Source: a virus. From it: a stretch of DNA of 37,598 nt. The notes under the pieces are model-generated. The model did not search any database and was not told the origin of the DNA. It was given only the letters and a program-made list of their open reading frames with translations. The stretch lies in the IMG/VR virus record IMGVR_UViG_3300017824_000026, positions 1 through 37,598 of that record; one strand, 5' to 3'. Shown piece by piece: positions 7,942 through 14,074 of the stretch (position 1 is the stretch's first letter; the number at the start of each line of letters is the position of its first letter). The translations under genes and the position numbers were made by a program.

Positions 7942-8026
7942 TGGTGGAGAAGGTGTGACTCGAACACACAATGCCAGAGGCGGTGGATTTACAGTCCACT
8001 GGGGTTACCAATTTTCCTACTTCTCC
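7942..8026 (-). tRNA. tRNA-Tyr (GUA)
   Basis: A class II tRNA of 85 nt with acceptor GGAGAAG/CTTCTCC, anticodon loop CTGTAAA (anticodon GTA), a long variable arm, T-loop TTCGAGT and encoded ACCA. Its first ten bases overlap the end of the SGNH hydrolase gene; the TAG stop occupies tRNA positions 8-10. Confidence 0.95.
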
Positions 8027-8439
8027 AAAGTACCATTAGTTTGTGCTGCCAATTTCTTGTAACCCTTATAAGTCGGATGGACGCCATCAGGACTTATATC
8101 AGTTTCTGGTCTGGAGATAACCACATCTCCAAATTCTTCAGCAACACGTTTCACTGCTTCTACCTGTGCGGGTTTTAGTTTACCGCTGGGCAGTAACCAA
8201 AACACTTGATCTGCTTTGGCTACTGTCCGTAGCATACGAATGTTCTCTTCTGTCTTGATGCCTTTGTAGTCGTTAGCACCTAAACTGATAACCAACGTGC
8301 GAGCAGGTTTTAGGCTATTGAGATGACGTTCGTTCCATACTTTGGAATTGATTCCGCTCTTAACGATTGCCGCACATTCTTTTCGTACTTGACTAACTCC
8401 TACTGCGATGCTATCTCCTACGATCAAACATTCTAACAT
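8017..8439 (-). CDS. Small SGNH/GDSL-family hydrolase
   Basis: A 140-aa single-domain hydrolase with all four family blocks: GDS (Ser10 nucleophile), a strand before the oxyanion glycine, GAND (Asn56), and DGVHPT (Asp118, His121). It has no signal peptide, so it probably acts in the cytoplasm or is released at lysis. The substrate cannot be read from sequence; an ester of lipid, glycan or peptidoglycan is possible. A strong TAGGAGG site precedes ATG 8439. The gene sits inside the tRNA operon, between tRNA-Thr and tRNA-Tyr, and its 3' end overlaps tRNA-Tyr, so 5' processing of the tRNA should cut the end of this mRNA. Confidence 0.85.
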   Translation of the reverse strand: MLECLIVGDSIAVGVSQVRKECAAIVKSGINSKVWNERHLNSLKPARTLVISLGANDYKGIKTEENIRMLRTVAKADQVFWLLPSGKLKPAQVEAVKRVAEEFGDVVISRPETDISPDGVHPTYKGYKKLAAQTNGTLEK

Positions 8440-9167: not shown

Positions 9168-9365
9168 TTACTTATTTTTATGGTTCAACATAAGTGCTTT
9201 CGCTTCTTTATGATATCCCATGTTTGCCAACTGAGCAGCAGCACGAGCACGACCCATAGTCTCAAATACTGAGATAATTTTTTCAAAAACTCTTGCCATT
9301 ACATTGCGGACTTTGATACAGAAGTTACAAGTAACTTCCCAATACATTTGTGCGAGCGATTCCAT
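9168..9365 (-). CDS. Small DUF1127-associated protein, 65 aa
   Basis: A basic helical protein. Its segment VFETMGRARAAAQLANMGYHKEAKALML is of a type found in proteobacterial small proteins encoded next to DUF1127 genes. The start ATG 9365 overlaps the stop of the upstream DUF1127 gene (TAATG). There is no signal peptide. In bacteria, small DUF1127 proteins have been linked to RNA turnover and stress or phosphate responses; whether this holds in a phage is unknown. Confidence 0.65.
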   Translation of the reverse strand: MESLAQMYWEVTCNFCIKVRNVMARVFEKIISVFETMGRARAAAQLANMGYHKEAKALMLNHKNK

Positions 9366-9550
9366 TACACTACTCTCCTATAAACTGCTGTGTTTCCTTT
9401 TGCGATTTCGTAAATATCATTACGACCAATACCAATATCTCGCAGTTCCTTATCAGTCAGCTTTGATAGTTGTTCAACAGTCTTTTGAATGTTACGGTAA
9501 TCAGCTATTTGTTCTTTCACTCTCTCCATCATTTCAATTAATCGGTTCAT
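9365..9550 (-). CDS. DUF1127-domain small protein, 61 aa
   Basis: The C-terminal half reads LSKLTDKELRDIGIGRNDIYEIAKG, the classic DUF1127 signature (Leu-rich helix, then DIGIxRxxI). The N-terminal half is a basic helix. DUF1127 proteins are typical of proteobacterial chromosomes, so this looks host-derived. A GAGAAG site precedes ATG 9550. The gene forms a two-gene unit with the next one downstream (9168-9365). Confidence 0.85.
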   Translation of the reverse strand: MNRLIEMMERVKEQIADYRNIQKTVEQLSKLTDKELRDIGIGRNDIYEIAKGNTAVYRRVV

Positions 9551-9648: not shown

Positions 9649-10086
9649 TTAAGCGATTTCGATTTTTTTAGGCTTTTTGTCCTCTGGAATGATACGTTCT
9701 AGAGAGACTTTTAATAGTCCATTGATCATCTCAGCATTCTTTACCTCAACTTGATCATTGAGTGTAAACATGCGAGTGAATGGACGGAACGCCAAGCCTT
9801 GGAATAGAATATTAGTTTCTTCTTCTTTGGCATCGGTGTTACCTTTGATGACAAGTTTGTCACCTTCAGTTTCGATTGTGATATCTGTTTTACCGAATCC
9901 AGCAACAGCCATCTCGATGACGTAGGTATTCTCGTCAGTTTTCTTGATGTTGTATGGAGGGTAATTTGGGATGTTCTTTGCAACTTCGTCATGAATTTTA
10001 GTCATGCGATTTAAGACGTCATCAAAGCCAACATAGAACTTATCAAAGTCTTTGAAAGAATCCTGAAATGGTTTTAGATATGTCAT
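9649..10086 (-). CDS. HSP20/alpha-crystallin small heat-shock protein
   Basis: A 145-aa sHSP. The alpha-crystallin domain runs from about YPPYNIKKTDENTYVIEMAVAGF through GDKLVIKG to NGLLKVSLERIIPE, with the conserved GLLKVSL strand. The C-terminal KKIEIA supplies the I-x-I tail motif that caps the domain. It starts at ATG 10086 (MTYLKPFQ) behind AAAGGAG. IbpA-like chaperones hold aggregating proteins and are frequent in marine T4-like phages. The gene follows the phasin-like gene by 1 nt, so both share the structured leader at 10344-10478. Confidence 0.94.
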   Translation of the reverse strand: MTYLKPFQDSFKDFDKFYVGFDDVLNRMTKIHDEVAKNIPNYPPYNIKKTDENTYVIEMAVAGFGKTDITIETEGDKLVIKGNTDAKEEETNILFQGLAFRPFTRMFTLNDQVEVKNAEMINGLLKVSLERIIPEDKKPKKIEIA

Positions 10087-10087
10087 A

Positions 10088-10309
10088 TTACTCTCCTTTA
10101 CTCTTTGTGAACATTTTATCCACAGTAGCTTCCGCTGCTGCACCAGTTACTTCCCAAGCAGTCTTAGCGACTTGCTTAGTGAAAGCAGTTTGTGCGTCTA
10201 CGAAATTTTGTAGGGGAGTTTTGACAGTTTCGTCTTTGACGAATGTCGAGAGCCAAGATGATTTGGCATTTTGAATGGCATCAATAGCCATGTTTGCGTA
10301 CATTAGCAT
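10088..10309 (-). CDS. Phasin-like small helical protein, 73 aa
   Basis: Starts at ATG 10309 with GGAGAAACTAA upstream. The core NFVDAQTAFTKQVAKTAWEVTGAAAEA is amphipathic and Ala/Thr-rich, like bacterial phasins, which coat polyhydroxyalkanoate granules or act as general amphipathic chaperones. The protein is shorter than typical phasins (over 100 aa), so the match is only suggestive. Coupling to hsp20 fits a stress or chaperone role, since phasins and HSP20 are both recorded on granule surfaces. The alternative is simply an uncharacterised amphipathic helix protein. Confidence 0.6.
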   Translation of the reverse strand: MLMYANMAIDAIQNAKSSWLSTFVKDETVKTPLQNFVDAQTAFTKQVAKTAWEVTGAAAEATVDKMFTKSKGE

Positions 10310-10343
10310 TTAGTTTCTCCTATTAAGCGAGTTTTAGTTATAC

Positions 10344-10478
10344 ACCACCCCGAAGGCATGGGAATCCTTGGTTTGTTTAGCCAGAGCCAAGGCTGCTGGT
10401 TTAACGCCTTATACCGTAGCGTCAAACGGTTCCCAAGGTAGTGGGAAAATTGGGGTGGTAGTTTTGACTGGACTACCA
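10344..10478 (-). ncRNA. Structured 5' leader, candidate riboswitch-type element, before phasin-like/hsp20
   Basis: On the minus strand ACCACCCC (10452-10459) can pair with GGGGTGGT (10344-10351), closing about 116 nt. Inside are TGGGAA/TTCCCA (10430-10435 with 10359-10364), an 8-bp hairpin TTTGACGC/GCGTTAAA (10419-10426 with 10400-10407) and CCTTGG/CCAAGG (10387-10392 with 10366-10371). A competing upstream hairpin TGGTAGT/ACTACCA (10472-10478 with 10456-10462) uses bases of the closing stem, so the two cannot form together. That arrangement fits a switch. The element ends about 35 nt before the phasin-like ATG. Marine-phage leader motifs such as manA (recorded near ibpA-type genes) and wcaG are candidates, but I cannot assign a family. 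Confidence 0.6.
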
Positions 10479-10578: not shown

Positions 10579-10650
10579 CTACTTATTCATTACGTACATC
10601 GTAACTTCAAAGCCAAAACGCATTTCTGTTGCTACAGGTTTTGTCCACAT
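10579..10650 (-). CDS. pqqA: PqqA, precursor peptide of the cofactor PQQ
   Basis: A 23-residue peptide starting MWTKP and containing FGFEVTMY. PqqA peptides of methylotrophs and pseudomonads have the same length and the same MWTKP start and E-V-T-x-Y core. The conserved Glu15 and Tyr19 are the residues that PqqE cross-links to form pyrroloquinoline quinone; both are present with the correct three-residue spacing. AAAGGAG lies six bases before ATG 10650, a strong site. No pqqB-E gene is in the window, so the peptide would have to feed host enzymes. One PqqA is used up per PQQ made, so extra peptide could raise cofactor supply for PQQ-dependent methanol or alcohol dehydrogenases. A structured leader lies just upstream (10684-10769). 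Confidence 0.9.
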   Translation of the reverse strand: MWTKPVATEMRFGFEVTMYVMNK

Positions 10651-10683
10651 ATGCTTCTCCTTTCTTCGAAATCTCGCAGATCG

Positions 10684-10769
10684 GAGGGGAGCCAGAGGCA
10701 AGTCCACCTTGAGCGGTATTGGAACGAGCTAACCGTTGACTCGCACGGATGTGTTAAGGCATCACCCTC
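10684..10769 (-). ncRNA. Possibly structured leader upstream of pqqA
   Basis: A GC-rich non-coding stretch between the 57-aa gene and pqqA. On the minus strand GAGGG (10765-10769) can pair with CCCTC (10684-10688). Inside are small hairpins such as GATG/CATC, CGGT/ACCG and CAAG-GTGGA-CTTG. The stems are short and the model is tentative. No ORF longer than a few codons with a start site covers it, which leaves a regulatory RNA as the simplest reading. Confidence 0.4.
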
Positions 10770-10773
10770 AGTA

Positions 10774-10947
10774 TTACTTAGTCTCCGCAGGAGCCTCTTT
10801 TGCCTCAGCTTCTGCAATCGCAGCAACCTGTGGCTCGCCCTGCTGTTTAATTTTGTTAATGAGTAACACAACATCCTCAAATGGGTGCTTACCTAGCACA
10901 CGAAGAATAGTATTTGCTTCCTCTACGGTCAATTCAAGTTTAATCAT
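10774..10947 (-). CDS. Small conserved marine-phage-type protein, 57 aa
   Basis: Starts at ATG 10947 (MIKLELTVEEANTILRVLGKHPF), overlapping the regA stop as ATGA. The text LELTVEEANxILRxLGKxPFEDVxxLINKIKQQ looks like a compact helical domain that recurs next to regA/62/44 in marine T4-like phages, as far as I recall. It is followed by an Ala/Glu-rich tail (AAIAEAEAKEAPAETK). The function is unknown. Translation is probably coupled to regA. Confidence 0.8.
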   Translation of the reverse strand: MIKLELTVEEANTILRVLGKHPFEDVVLLINKIKQQGEPQVAAIAEAEAKEAPAETK

Positions 10948-11360
10948 TTTTTCTTTCCTATGTTATATTTTGGAACAAGTTCCCACTGGTCTTTTTCTTT
11001 GTAAGAGACCACCTTAATTTGAGACAAAGATGCCTTCTGTTCAGCTTGGGTAGGAGTAACAATACTTAGTAGTTCCCAATCGCCAAGCAATCCAGCGATA
11101 GCATTTCTGCGCTCAATATCACCAGAAGTGATATTCGATTCTTTACCGTCAAGAGCAAACAACTCTTTAAAGTGGACGATAAAGTACCTACCTTGCTTAT
11201 GTAAAATATGGCAAGATTGATAAAGTTTTTGTTCTTTTCTGGAAGCGATGCCAATACGTGTTAACGTTTCTCGTACTTTAAGAAAGTTATCTGGCTCAGG
11301 CAGCGTAATCTCTAACATGGACTCTGGTGTCCAGTCATAGTAAATCATTTCAACGCTCAT
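10944..11360 (-). CDS. regA: RegA translational repressor
   Basis: A 138-aa protein aligning with T4 RegA (122 aa) over NFLKVRETLTRIGIASRKEQKLYQSCHILHKQGRYFIVHFKELFALDG, which forms the RNA-binding core. RegA binds the ribosome-binding sites of early mRNAs, in T4 including those of 44 and 45, and shuts off translation. An N-terminal extension of about 15 residues (MSVEMIYYDWTPESML) is extra relative to T4. ATG 11360 is preferred over a GTG four codons upstream because GGTGG lies before it and the gp62 stop is adjacent. The operon order 45-44-62-regA is as in T4. Confidence 0.96.
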   Translation of the reverse strand: MSVEMIYYDWTPESMLEITLPEPDNFLKVRETLTRIGIASRKEQKLYQSCHILHKQGRYFIVHFKELFALDGKESNITSGDIERRNAIAGLLGDWELLSIVTPTQAEQKASLSQIKVVSYKEKDQWELVPKYNIGKKK

Positions 11361-11361
11361 T

Positions 11362-11742
11362 TTATTTTCCACCTTTATATAATTTGTCTCTAATTATTTG
11401 TATTTGCTCGGACGTCAAAACATCCAGTGCACGTTTCGCTTTCTCACTGGAGTATTTATAATATTCCATGATAAGTTTCAAATCATCAGTGAAGGCATCT
11501 TTCTTATGCCATTTGCTGAATCTTTTACGCTTTGTAGCACTATTTAGCAAAAAAGAAAATTGGAGACTAGAAGGTAGTTCATGCCTTACGTTCATCTCAT
11601 TAGCCAGAAGAATTGTATCTGGAAAATAAGACAAGCCACGATTAACAATAAACGCATTATAATCTTTTTCAGCTTGAGGATCTTTGAACAGATCCTCTTT
11701 CGTCATATTGATAGCATTTAAAAAATCAAAAGGTGTCATCAT
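11362..11742 (-). CDS. 62: gp62 clamp-loader small subunit
   Basis: A 126-aa protein with TPFDFLNAINMTKEDLF at the N-terminus, YNAFIVNRGLSYFPDTILLANEMN in the middle and a basic KRKRFSKWHKKD segment. This matches T4 gp62 in position, and the NxxLSY-FPD-ILxANExN block is characteristic. One gp62 assembles with four gp44 to load the gp45 clamp. The protein is shorter than T4 gp62 (187 aa), as in marine relatives. It starts at ATG 11742 (or 11739), overlapping the gp44 stop. Confidence 0.93.
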   Translation of the reverse strand: MMTPFDFLNAINMTKEDLFKDPQAEKDYNAFIVNRGLSYFPDTILLANEMNVRHELPSSLQFSFLLNSATKRKRFSKWHKKDAFTDDLKLIMEYYKYSSEKAKRALDVLTSEQIQIIRDKLYKGGK

Positions 11743-13488: not shown

Positions 13489-13517
13489 ATTATACATCAT
13501 ATTACATTGTATGTCAA
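13489..13517 (-). promoter_or_regulatory. Sigma70-type promoter of the gp45-44-62-regA operon
   Basis: TTGACA (13512-13517) - 17 nt - TATAAT (13489-13494) on the minus strand. The transcribed start contains ACATCTACAAAATTGAAA, nearly the same as at 15282 and 16586. The -35 box overlaps the stop of the peroxiredoxin gene. Confidence 0.88.
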
Positions 13518-14074
13518 GCGTTCTCAAGATATTCAAGAACTTTTTCAGGGGTAGAGTTTACATATGGATCTGTCTCACAATTGTTCATGATTCCATCCTC
13601 TGCACCCATATATTCAATAATTCCATCGTTGACCACCATAGCATAACGCCATGATCGAACACCGAAACCCAAGTTATCTTTTGCTACCAAAGCACCCATT
13701 CCAGCAGTAAACTTACCAGAACCATCAGGGATAAACTTGATGTTCTTAACCTTTTGATGGATCATCCACTGGCGCATAACGAATGTATCGTTAACAGAAA
13801 TAACGTATACCTCATCAACACCTAAGGATTTCATCTTGTCATAATTTTGTTCGAATCCAGGAACCTGAAAAGTCGAACATGTTGGTGTGAATGCGCCTGG
13901 AAGTGAGAATACTACGACACGTTTACCAGAAAAGATATCTGCTGTCGAGAGTTCTTTCCACTCAAAGGGATTTTCTCCACCGTTTGTTTCGTCCACATAA
14001 CAGATATCTTTACCATCTGTGCGAACACGGTACAGAAAATTTGTTTGTGGAACACCATCACCAACTCCAATCAT
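13514..14074 (-). CDS. Peroxiredoxin (Prx5/AhpC-TSA type)
   Basis: A 186-aa thiol peroxidase. The peroxidatic motif is PGAFTPTCS with Cys66, the hallmark P-x3-T-x2-C, and the helper arginine is probably in GVRSWRYAMVV. SLPGAFTPTCSTFQVPGFEQ and VYVISVNDTFVMRQW are typical of the Prx5/hybrid class. A second cysteine (NNCETD) near residue 168 could resolve the disulfide. It would detoxify H2O2 or organic peroxides during infection, perhaps with the phage thioredoxin as reductant (inference). GGAG precedes ATG 14074. Confidence 0.93.
   Translation of the reverse strand: MIGVGDGVPQTNFLYRVRTDGKDICYVDETNGGENPFEWKELSTADIFSGKRVVVFSLPGAFTPTCSTFQVPGFEQNYDKMKSLGVDEVYVISVNDTFVMRQWMIHQKVKNIKFIPDGSGKFTAGMGALVAKDNLGFGVRSWRYAMVVNDGIIEYMGAEDGIMNNCETDPYVNSTPEKVLEYLENA

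Follow-up and report, generated by a model that had tools for sequence, protein, structure and literature searches.

Why would a T4-like phage encode the precursor peptide of a host cofactor, and encode it in a gene of only 72 nt? The question arises from a short ORF in a 37,598-nucleotide stretch of viral DNA (IMG/VR record IMGVR_UViG_3300017824_000026, positions 1 to 37,598; hereafter the window). The first-pass annotation, made from the letters alone, had read this ORF as PqqA and had proposed that the phage supplements precursor supply so that methanol or alcohol oxidation continues during infection. In known PqqA peptides, the Glu and Tyr of an E-x3-Y motif become PQQ. One PqqA is consumed per PQQ, while the enzymes of the pathway are catalytic.

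Identity of the 23-codon ORF

The ORF occupies exactly 10579-10650. No strand had been named for it; we place it on the minus strand, where it reads from 10650 to 10579 with an ATG start codon and a TAG stop, and the plus-strand frame of the same interval is without any such peptide. Its features are as follows.

10579..10650, minus strand: pqqA, 23 codons plus TAG, MWTKPVATEMRFGFEVTMYVMNK (PF08042 1.5e-9, TIGR02107 3.5e-9, translation)
10594..10608, minus strand: E-x3-Y core, Glu15 to Tyr19 (sequence)
10657..10663, minus strand: ribosome-binding site AAAGGAG, with a 6-nt spacer to the pqqA ATG (sequence)

The PqqA reading proved significant in profile searches. Specifically, the peptide matched Pfam PqqA (PF08042) at E=1.5e-9 and 38 bits over 19/19 model positions (curated cut-off, 21.1 bits) and the NCBIfam equivalog TIGR02107 at E=3.5e-9 and 36.3 bits (cut-off, 20 bits). 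It was the sole PqqA-family match in a six-frame search of the 37.6-kb record, and 14 control genomes gave 0 matches to the family. A PDB search with the peptide returned no match. The ORF also has the size and form of PqqA, being short (about 22-29 residues for the family), free-standing and equipped with a ribosome site, and E15 and Y19 stand at the E-x3-Y spacing. The strong AAAGGAG site described at first pass is indeed present at 10663-10657, 6 nt before the ATG. The identity of the peptide as PqqA is thus supported by two curated profiles, and on these sequence grounds we regard the ORF as a genuine phage pqqA.

Genomic setting

Around pqqA, Pfam recognised regA, a clamp loader A subunit and Hsp20, which together indicate a T4-like replication module and bear out the assignment of the genome to the T4-like phages. 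In transcriptional order, the clamp loader genes and regA are followed by a 57-aa gene and pqqA, and then by a non-coding stretch, a 73-aa gene and hsp20.

10944..11372, minus strand: regA translational repressor, upstream neighbour (PF01818 5.7e-48)
10774..10947, minus strand: conserved 57-aa gene, function unassigned, upstream neighbour (detected in most related loci with tblastn)
10332..10475, minus strand: non-coding stretch from pqqA to the next gene, ends approximate, related to a conserved structured element of other T4-like loci (alignment and fold)
9649..10143, minus strand: hsp20, at the downstream end of the pqqA interval (PF00011 3.7e-19; ORF taken from a GTG)

The true start of hsp20 may be an internal ATG, and the 57-aa gene at 10774..10947 had no PHROG match. 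A contig from another assembly (L122, in the 48-kb record G001) is 99.9% identical to the window across 12.8 kb and has the same pqqA, and related T4-like contigs with diverged DNA hold pqqA in the same regA-hsp20 interval. The flanking T4-like genes, together with the recurrence of this interval in viral contigs, place pqqA in a phage genome rather than in host DNA.

Elsewhere in the window are genes for a thioredoxin (1944-2189), a redoxin (AhpC/TSA; 13514-14074) and a DUF1127 protein (9365-9550), as well as a weak GDSL-hydrolase-like match below cut-off (8017-8439). The last 17 kb of G001, mostly beyond the window, contain large structural-type ORFs as judged by eye, and no metabolic gene was noticed there by the same inspection.

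T4-like relatives and selection

We sought relatives with DNA patterns, tblastn and profile searches; many of the viral records are fragments. The same micro-ORF, for which a search of related genomes had been suggested, was present in further T4-like contigs as well as in methylophage isolates. A search with the clamp loader protein returned 49 records, 9 of them with PqqA, and among 39 loci spanning regA to hsp20 the gene was in the interval in 8 and missing from 31. On the gp44 tree, four changes of pqqA state are needed, only one of which is forced by starred branches, so the tree does not establish repeated gain within the T4-like phages.

Viral pqqA is under purifying selection: pN/pS was 0.26 across 108 distinct viral copies when computed on codons outside the searched motif (values inside it are search-biased and were excluded), and 0.18 over codons 2-23 for 7 distinct copies from T4-like phages, which had been collected without selecting for the motif. 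The E-x3-Y pair is invariant in 122 viral 23-aa copies, in most of which both residues are fixed by the search motif. Loss of this pair in relatives, named at first pass as evidence that would speak against PqqA, was seen in none of the copies collected. An SD-like site lies upstream in 116 of the 122.

pqqA in other phages

The core FGFEVTMY occurs in at least 120 IMG/VR contigs. When the window peptide was used as a tblastn query against 50,697 phage records, 12 matches were obtained, 10 of which are credible. Nine of these are Methylophilales isolates (Venkman, P19250A, MEP301, MEP401, MEP402 and four Melnitz isolates), and the tenth is a metagenomic podovirus genome from Manatee Spring. 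All nine cultured phages with a credible match therefore infect Methylophilales; cyanophages, coliphages and pelagiphages were absent from the matches in this collection. Other Methylophilales phages listed in the taxonomy were likewise not among the matches, either because the collection may not hold them or because they may be without the gene, and a Methylobacterium PqqA query (an approximate sequence) added no phages. Two records labelled 'Acinetobacter phage' (CAKLQF020000010.1 and CAKLQH020000055.1) were set aside; the former was judged bacterial, as it contains a whole pqq operon (pqqB, pqqC, PqqD and a radical SAM gene) next to ppk.

At first pass it had been anticipated that gene callers would miss an ORF of this size, and in 10/10 credible records the pqqA site is indeed unannotated or labelled 'hypothetical protein'. 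In Melnitz and in MW202481, the ORF called at the site is on the opposite strand. PHROGs holds no family matching phage PqqA. The main texts of the Melnitz, MEP301, MEP401/402 group and Venkman papers do not mention PqqA, and PQQ appears in one of the four as a medium component only.

The carriers have little else in common. Most pairs share 0-8 similar ORFs (23 for Venkman and MW202481), and the window shares 0 with the cultured and podovirus carriers, in a comparison of MEP402 and MW202481 over 40 kb and of the window as a partial genome. By taxonomy, Melnitz belongs to Kyanoviridae and MEP402 to Zobellviridae, and the Melnitz pqqA has as neighbours a tRNA-Leu and a gene with a gp5 OB domain, outside any regA-hsp20 interval. 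The few shared proteins, together with the differing placements and neighbourhoods, suggest several acquisitions of pqqA.

Host genomes

The pattern EMRFGFEVTMY was searched in 84,980 genomes, one per species, and the matches listed were mostly from Methylophilales or from unresolved betaproteobacteria titles, with few others. Eighteen genomes of this kind have 1-12 pqqA copies each, and the three host genomes tested have a single pqqC each. Published counts for Methylophilaceae agree, with 3-12 pqqA copies and, typically, a single set of the remaining pqq genes (PMC4109929). Since hosts multiply pqqA and not the enzyme genes, this arrangement fits a dosage limit on the precursor. In Methylotenera mobilis 13 (G079), we counted twelve scattered pqqA genes on one chromosome and a single pqqC, a mismatch with the published table, which gives strain 13 a count of 4 pqqA and Methylophilaceae 7 a count of 12 (PMC4109929).

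A Methylophilaceae genome (L248) encodes the very same 23-aa peptide as the window, and the closest cellular DNA matches the window pqqA at 66/72 bases. With the same peptide type present in Methylophilaceae, the window gene is related to a host metabolic gene. The host of the window phage is most likely a methylotroph of the Methylophilales, judging from these related genes. Infection of Methylophilales by every cultured credible carrier provides indirect but strong evidence for the methylotroph link.

PQQ pathway genes and earlier reports

The first-pass annotation held that only the substrate is carried, without the PqqB-E enzymes. For PqqB, PqqC and PqqE, the three enzymes covered by the search, this stands: 34 viral records with pqqA (G001 included) gave no match above cut-off to any of them, and pqqB, pqqC and pqqE do not lie beside viral pqqA as in a PQQ biosynthesis operon. 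The PqqC search detected pqqC in the three host genomes used as controls. A weak PqqE match in G055 was below cut-off and was rejected.

A PQQ-dependent methanol dehydrogenase was found in 1/34 of these records, the 72-kb G050 (IMGVR_UViG_3300025120_009955; L036/L329/L340-L342), which combines it with pqqA and formate dehydrogenase alpha. The other 33 gave none, and six of them (five isolates and the podovirus) were searched whole. G050 also contains ribonucleotide reductase, GroEL, a CsgG-like curli gene, a phage exonuclease and a virion-protein match.

Phage-encoded PqqA has already been published, and the window is not the first case. Coutinho et al. (2020; PMC7678222) described PqqA in VP_266, a T4-like virus population from Lake Baikal with Methylophilaceae as its assigned hosts, and proposed the same methanol-oxidation role for it; viral pqqA is listed in a 2026 study as well (PMC13188868). 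VP_266 and the window are both T4-like, encode the PqqA precursor and share this proposed role. VP_266 differs in encoding a methanol dehydrogenase, which the window and its near-identical 48-kb counterpart G001 are without.

Proposed role and alternatives

An infecting phage would make PqqA inside a methylotroph, most likely one of the Methylophilales, where host PqqD, PqqE, PqqB and PqqC would convert the phage peptide to PQQ. As the cofactor of host methanol dehydrogenases, this PQQ would allow methanol oxidation and energy supply to continue. With host transcription shut off, the precursor would be exhausted first, while the catalytic enzymes could outlast the shut-off. Because PqqA is the sole component consumed one per cofactor and the enzymes are catalytic, the phage need carry the substrate only, and pqqA alone would be the cheapest way of sustaining PQQ synthesis. 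We consider it likely that the phage in this way resupplies the consumed part of PQQ synthesis and sustains host methanol oxidation, with translation, processing and benefit as the inferred steps. This reading is supported by the two profiles, the restriction of isolates to Methylophilales phages, pN/pS, the ribosome sites, the host copy numbers, the failure to find PqqB, PqqC and PqqE in the 34 records searched, and the methanol dehydrogenase that accompanies pqqA in G050 and in the Baikal virus. The 31/39 related T4-like loci without pqqA at this position count against it.

The peptide might be a real PqqA whose PQQ mainly serves a dehydrogenase of the phage's own, some other quinoprotein or the redox protection of infected cells. 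G050, with its PQQ-dependent methanol dehydrogenase and formate dehydrogenase, and likewise the Baikal virus would fit such a use, as would the thioredoxin and redoxin genes of the window; we nonetheless think it unlikely, given that 33/34 pqqA-bearing records, six of them searched whole, yielded no such dehydrogenase. Substrate carried without enzymes could alternatively signify interference with the host, in which excess or altered PqqA would slow PQQ synthesis by occupying PqqD/PqqE or would have a signalling role. Against this stand the host type of the peptide, identical over 23 aa in a Methylophilaceae genome, and viral copies that bear nothing marking them as inhibitors, which render it very improbable. 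Host genomes with many scattered pqqA copies offer ample material for chance acquisition, and the gene is missing from many near relatives of the window phage, as would be expected of a functionless passenger. Such a passenger would hardly be under purifying selection, retain ribosome sites, occur in several little-related phage lineages and keep its position across T4-like phages whose gp44 has diverged, and we give this explanation scarcely any credence.

Relation to known systems and significance

Melnitz, Venkman, P19250A, MEP301, MEP401 and MEP402 resemble the window in having a free-standing pqqA of 23-24 codons with a ribosome site, and differ from it in that their pqqA is not annotated as such and has other gene neighbours. 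The extra pqqA copies of Methylophilaceae belong to the same peptide class and are also lone genes away from pqqBCDE; unlike the window gene, they are chromosomal and number 1-12 copies. Cyanophage psbA is a host-type gene thought to sustain energy metabolism during infection. By analogy viral pqqA may do the same, with the difference that psbA encodes a fast-turnover protein and pqqA a consumed cofactor precursor.

In the literature that could be searched, the recurrence of unannotated pqqA across cultured methylophage lineages is not stated. That pqqA-only carriage may be a general, convergent trait of Methylophilales phages is a view for which we find the case evenly balanced: unrelated lineages would each have taken up the consumable while relying on the host for the catalysts, and the gene would have been overlooked as too short for usual annotation. 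Viral pqqA is missing from deposited annotations and PHROGs, and this gene of 72 nt may help to pick out, among unassigned viral contigs, the phages of methanol-oxidising Methylophilales. It also allows a clean test of whether phages resupply the consumed, rather than the catalytic, parts of host metabolism, for which Melnitz, Venkman and MEP301 provide cultured phage-host pairs already on hand.

RNA and regulatory signals

The pqqA leader (10651-10776; z -0.5) and the 254 nt downstream of pqqA (z -1.1) folded no better than shuffles and thus provide no support for a PQQ riboswitch. Promoter and terminator scans were at chance level, 1/122 pqqA copies has TATAAATA at a distance of up to 60 nt, and Rfam found four tRNAs in the window and nothing else. 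The single-sequence fold of the window's non-coding stretch was no better than shuffles, and Rfam gave no match for the related element in the loci tested. At least 16 T4-like loci (L124, L126, L135, L141, L146 and L153 among them) have this element, which is independent of pqqA and is placed after the 57-aa gene or pqqA and ahead of the gene that follows. Its hairpins show some two-sided changes (for example GCTGGA...AACCAGC), and it terminates in the leader AACTCGCTTAATAGGAGAAA.
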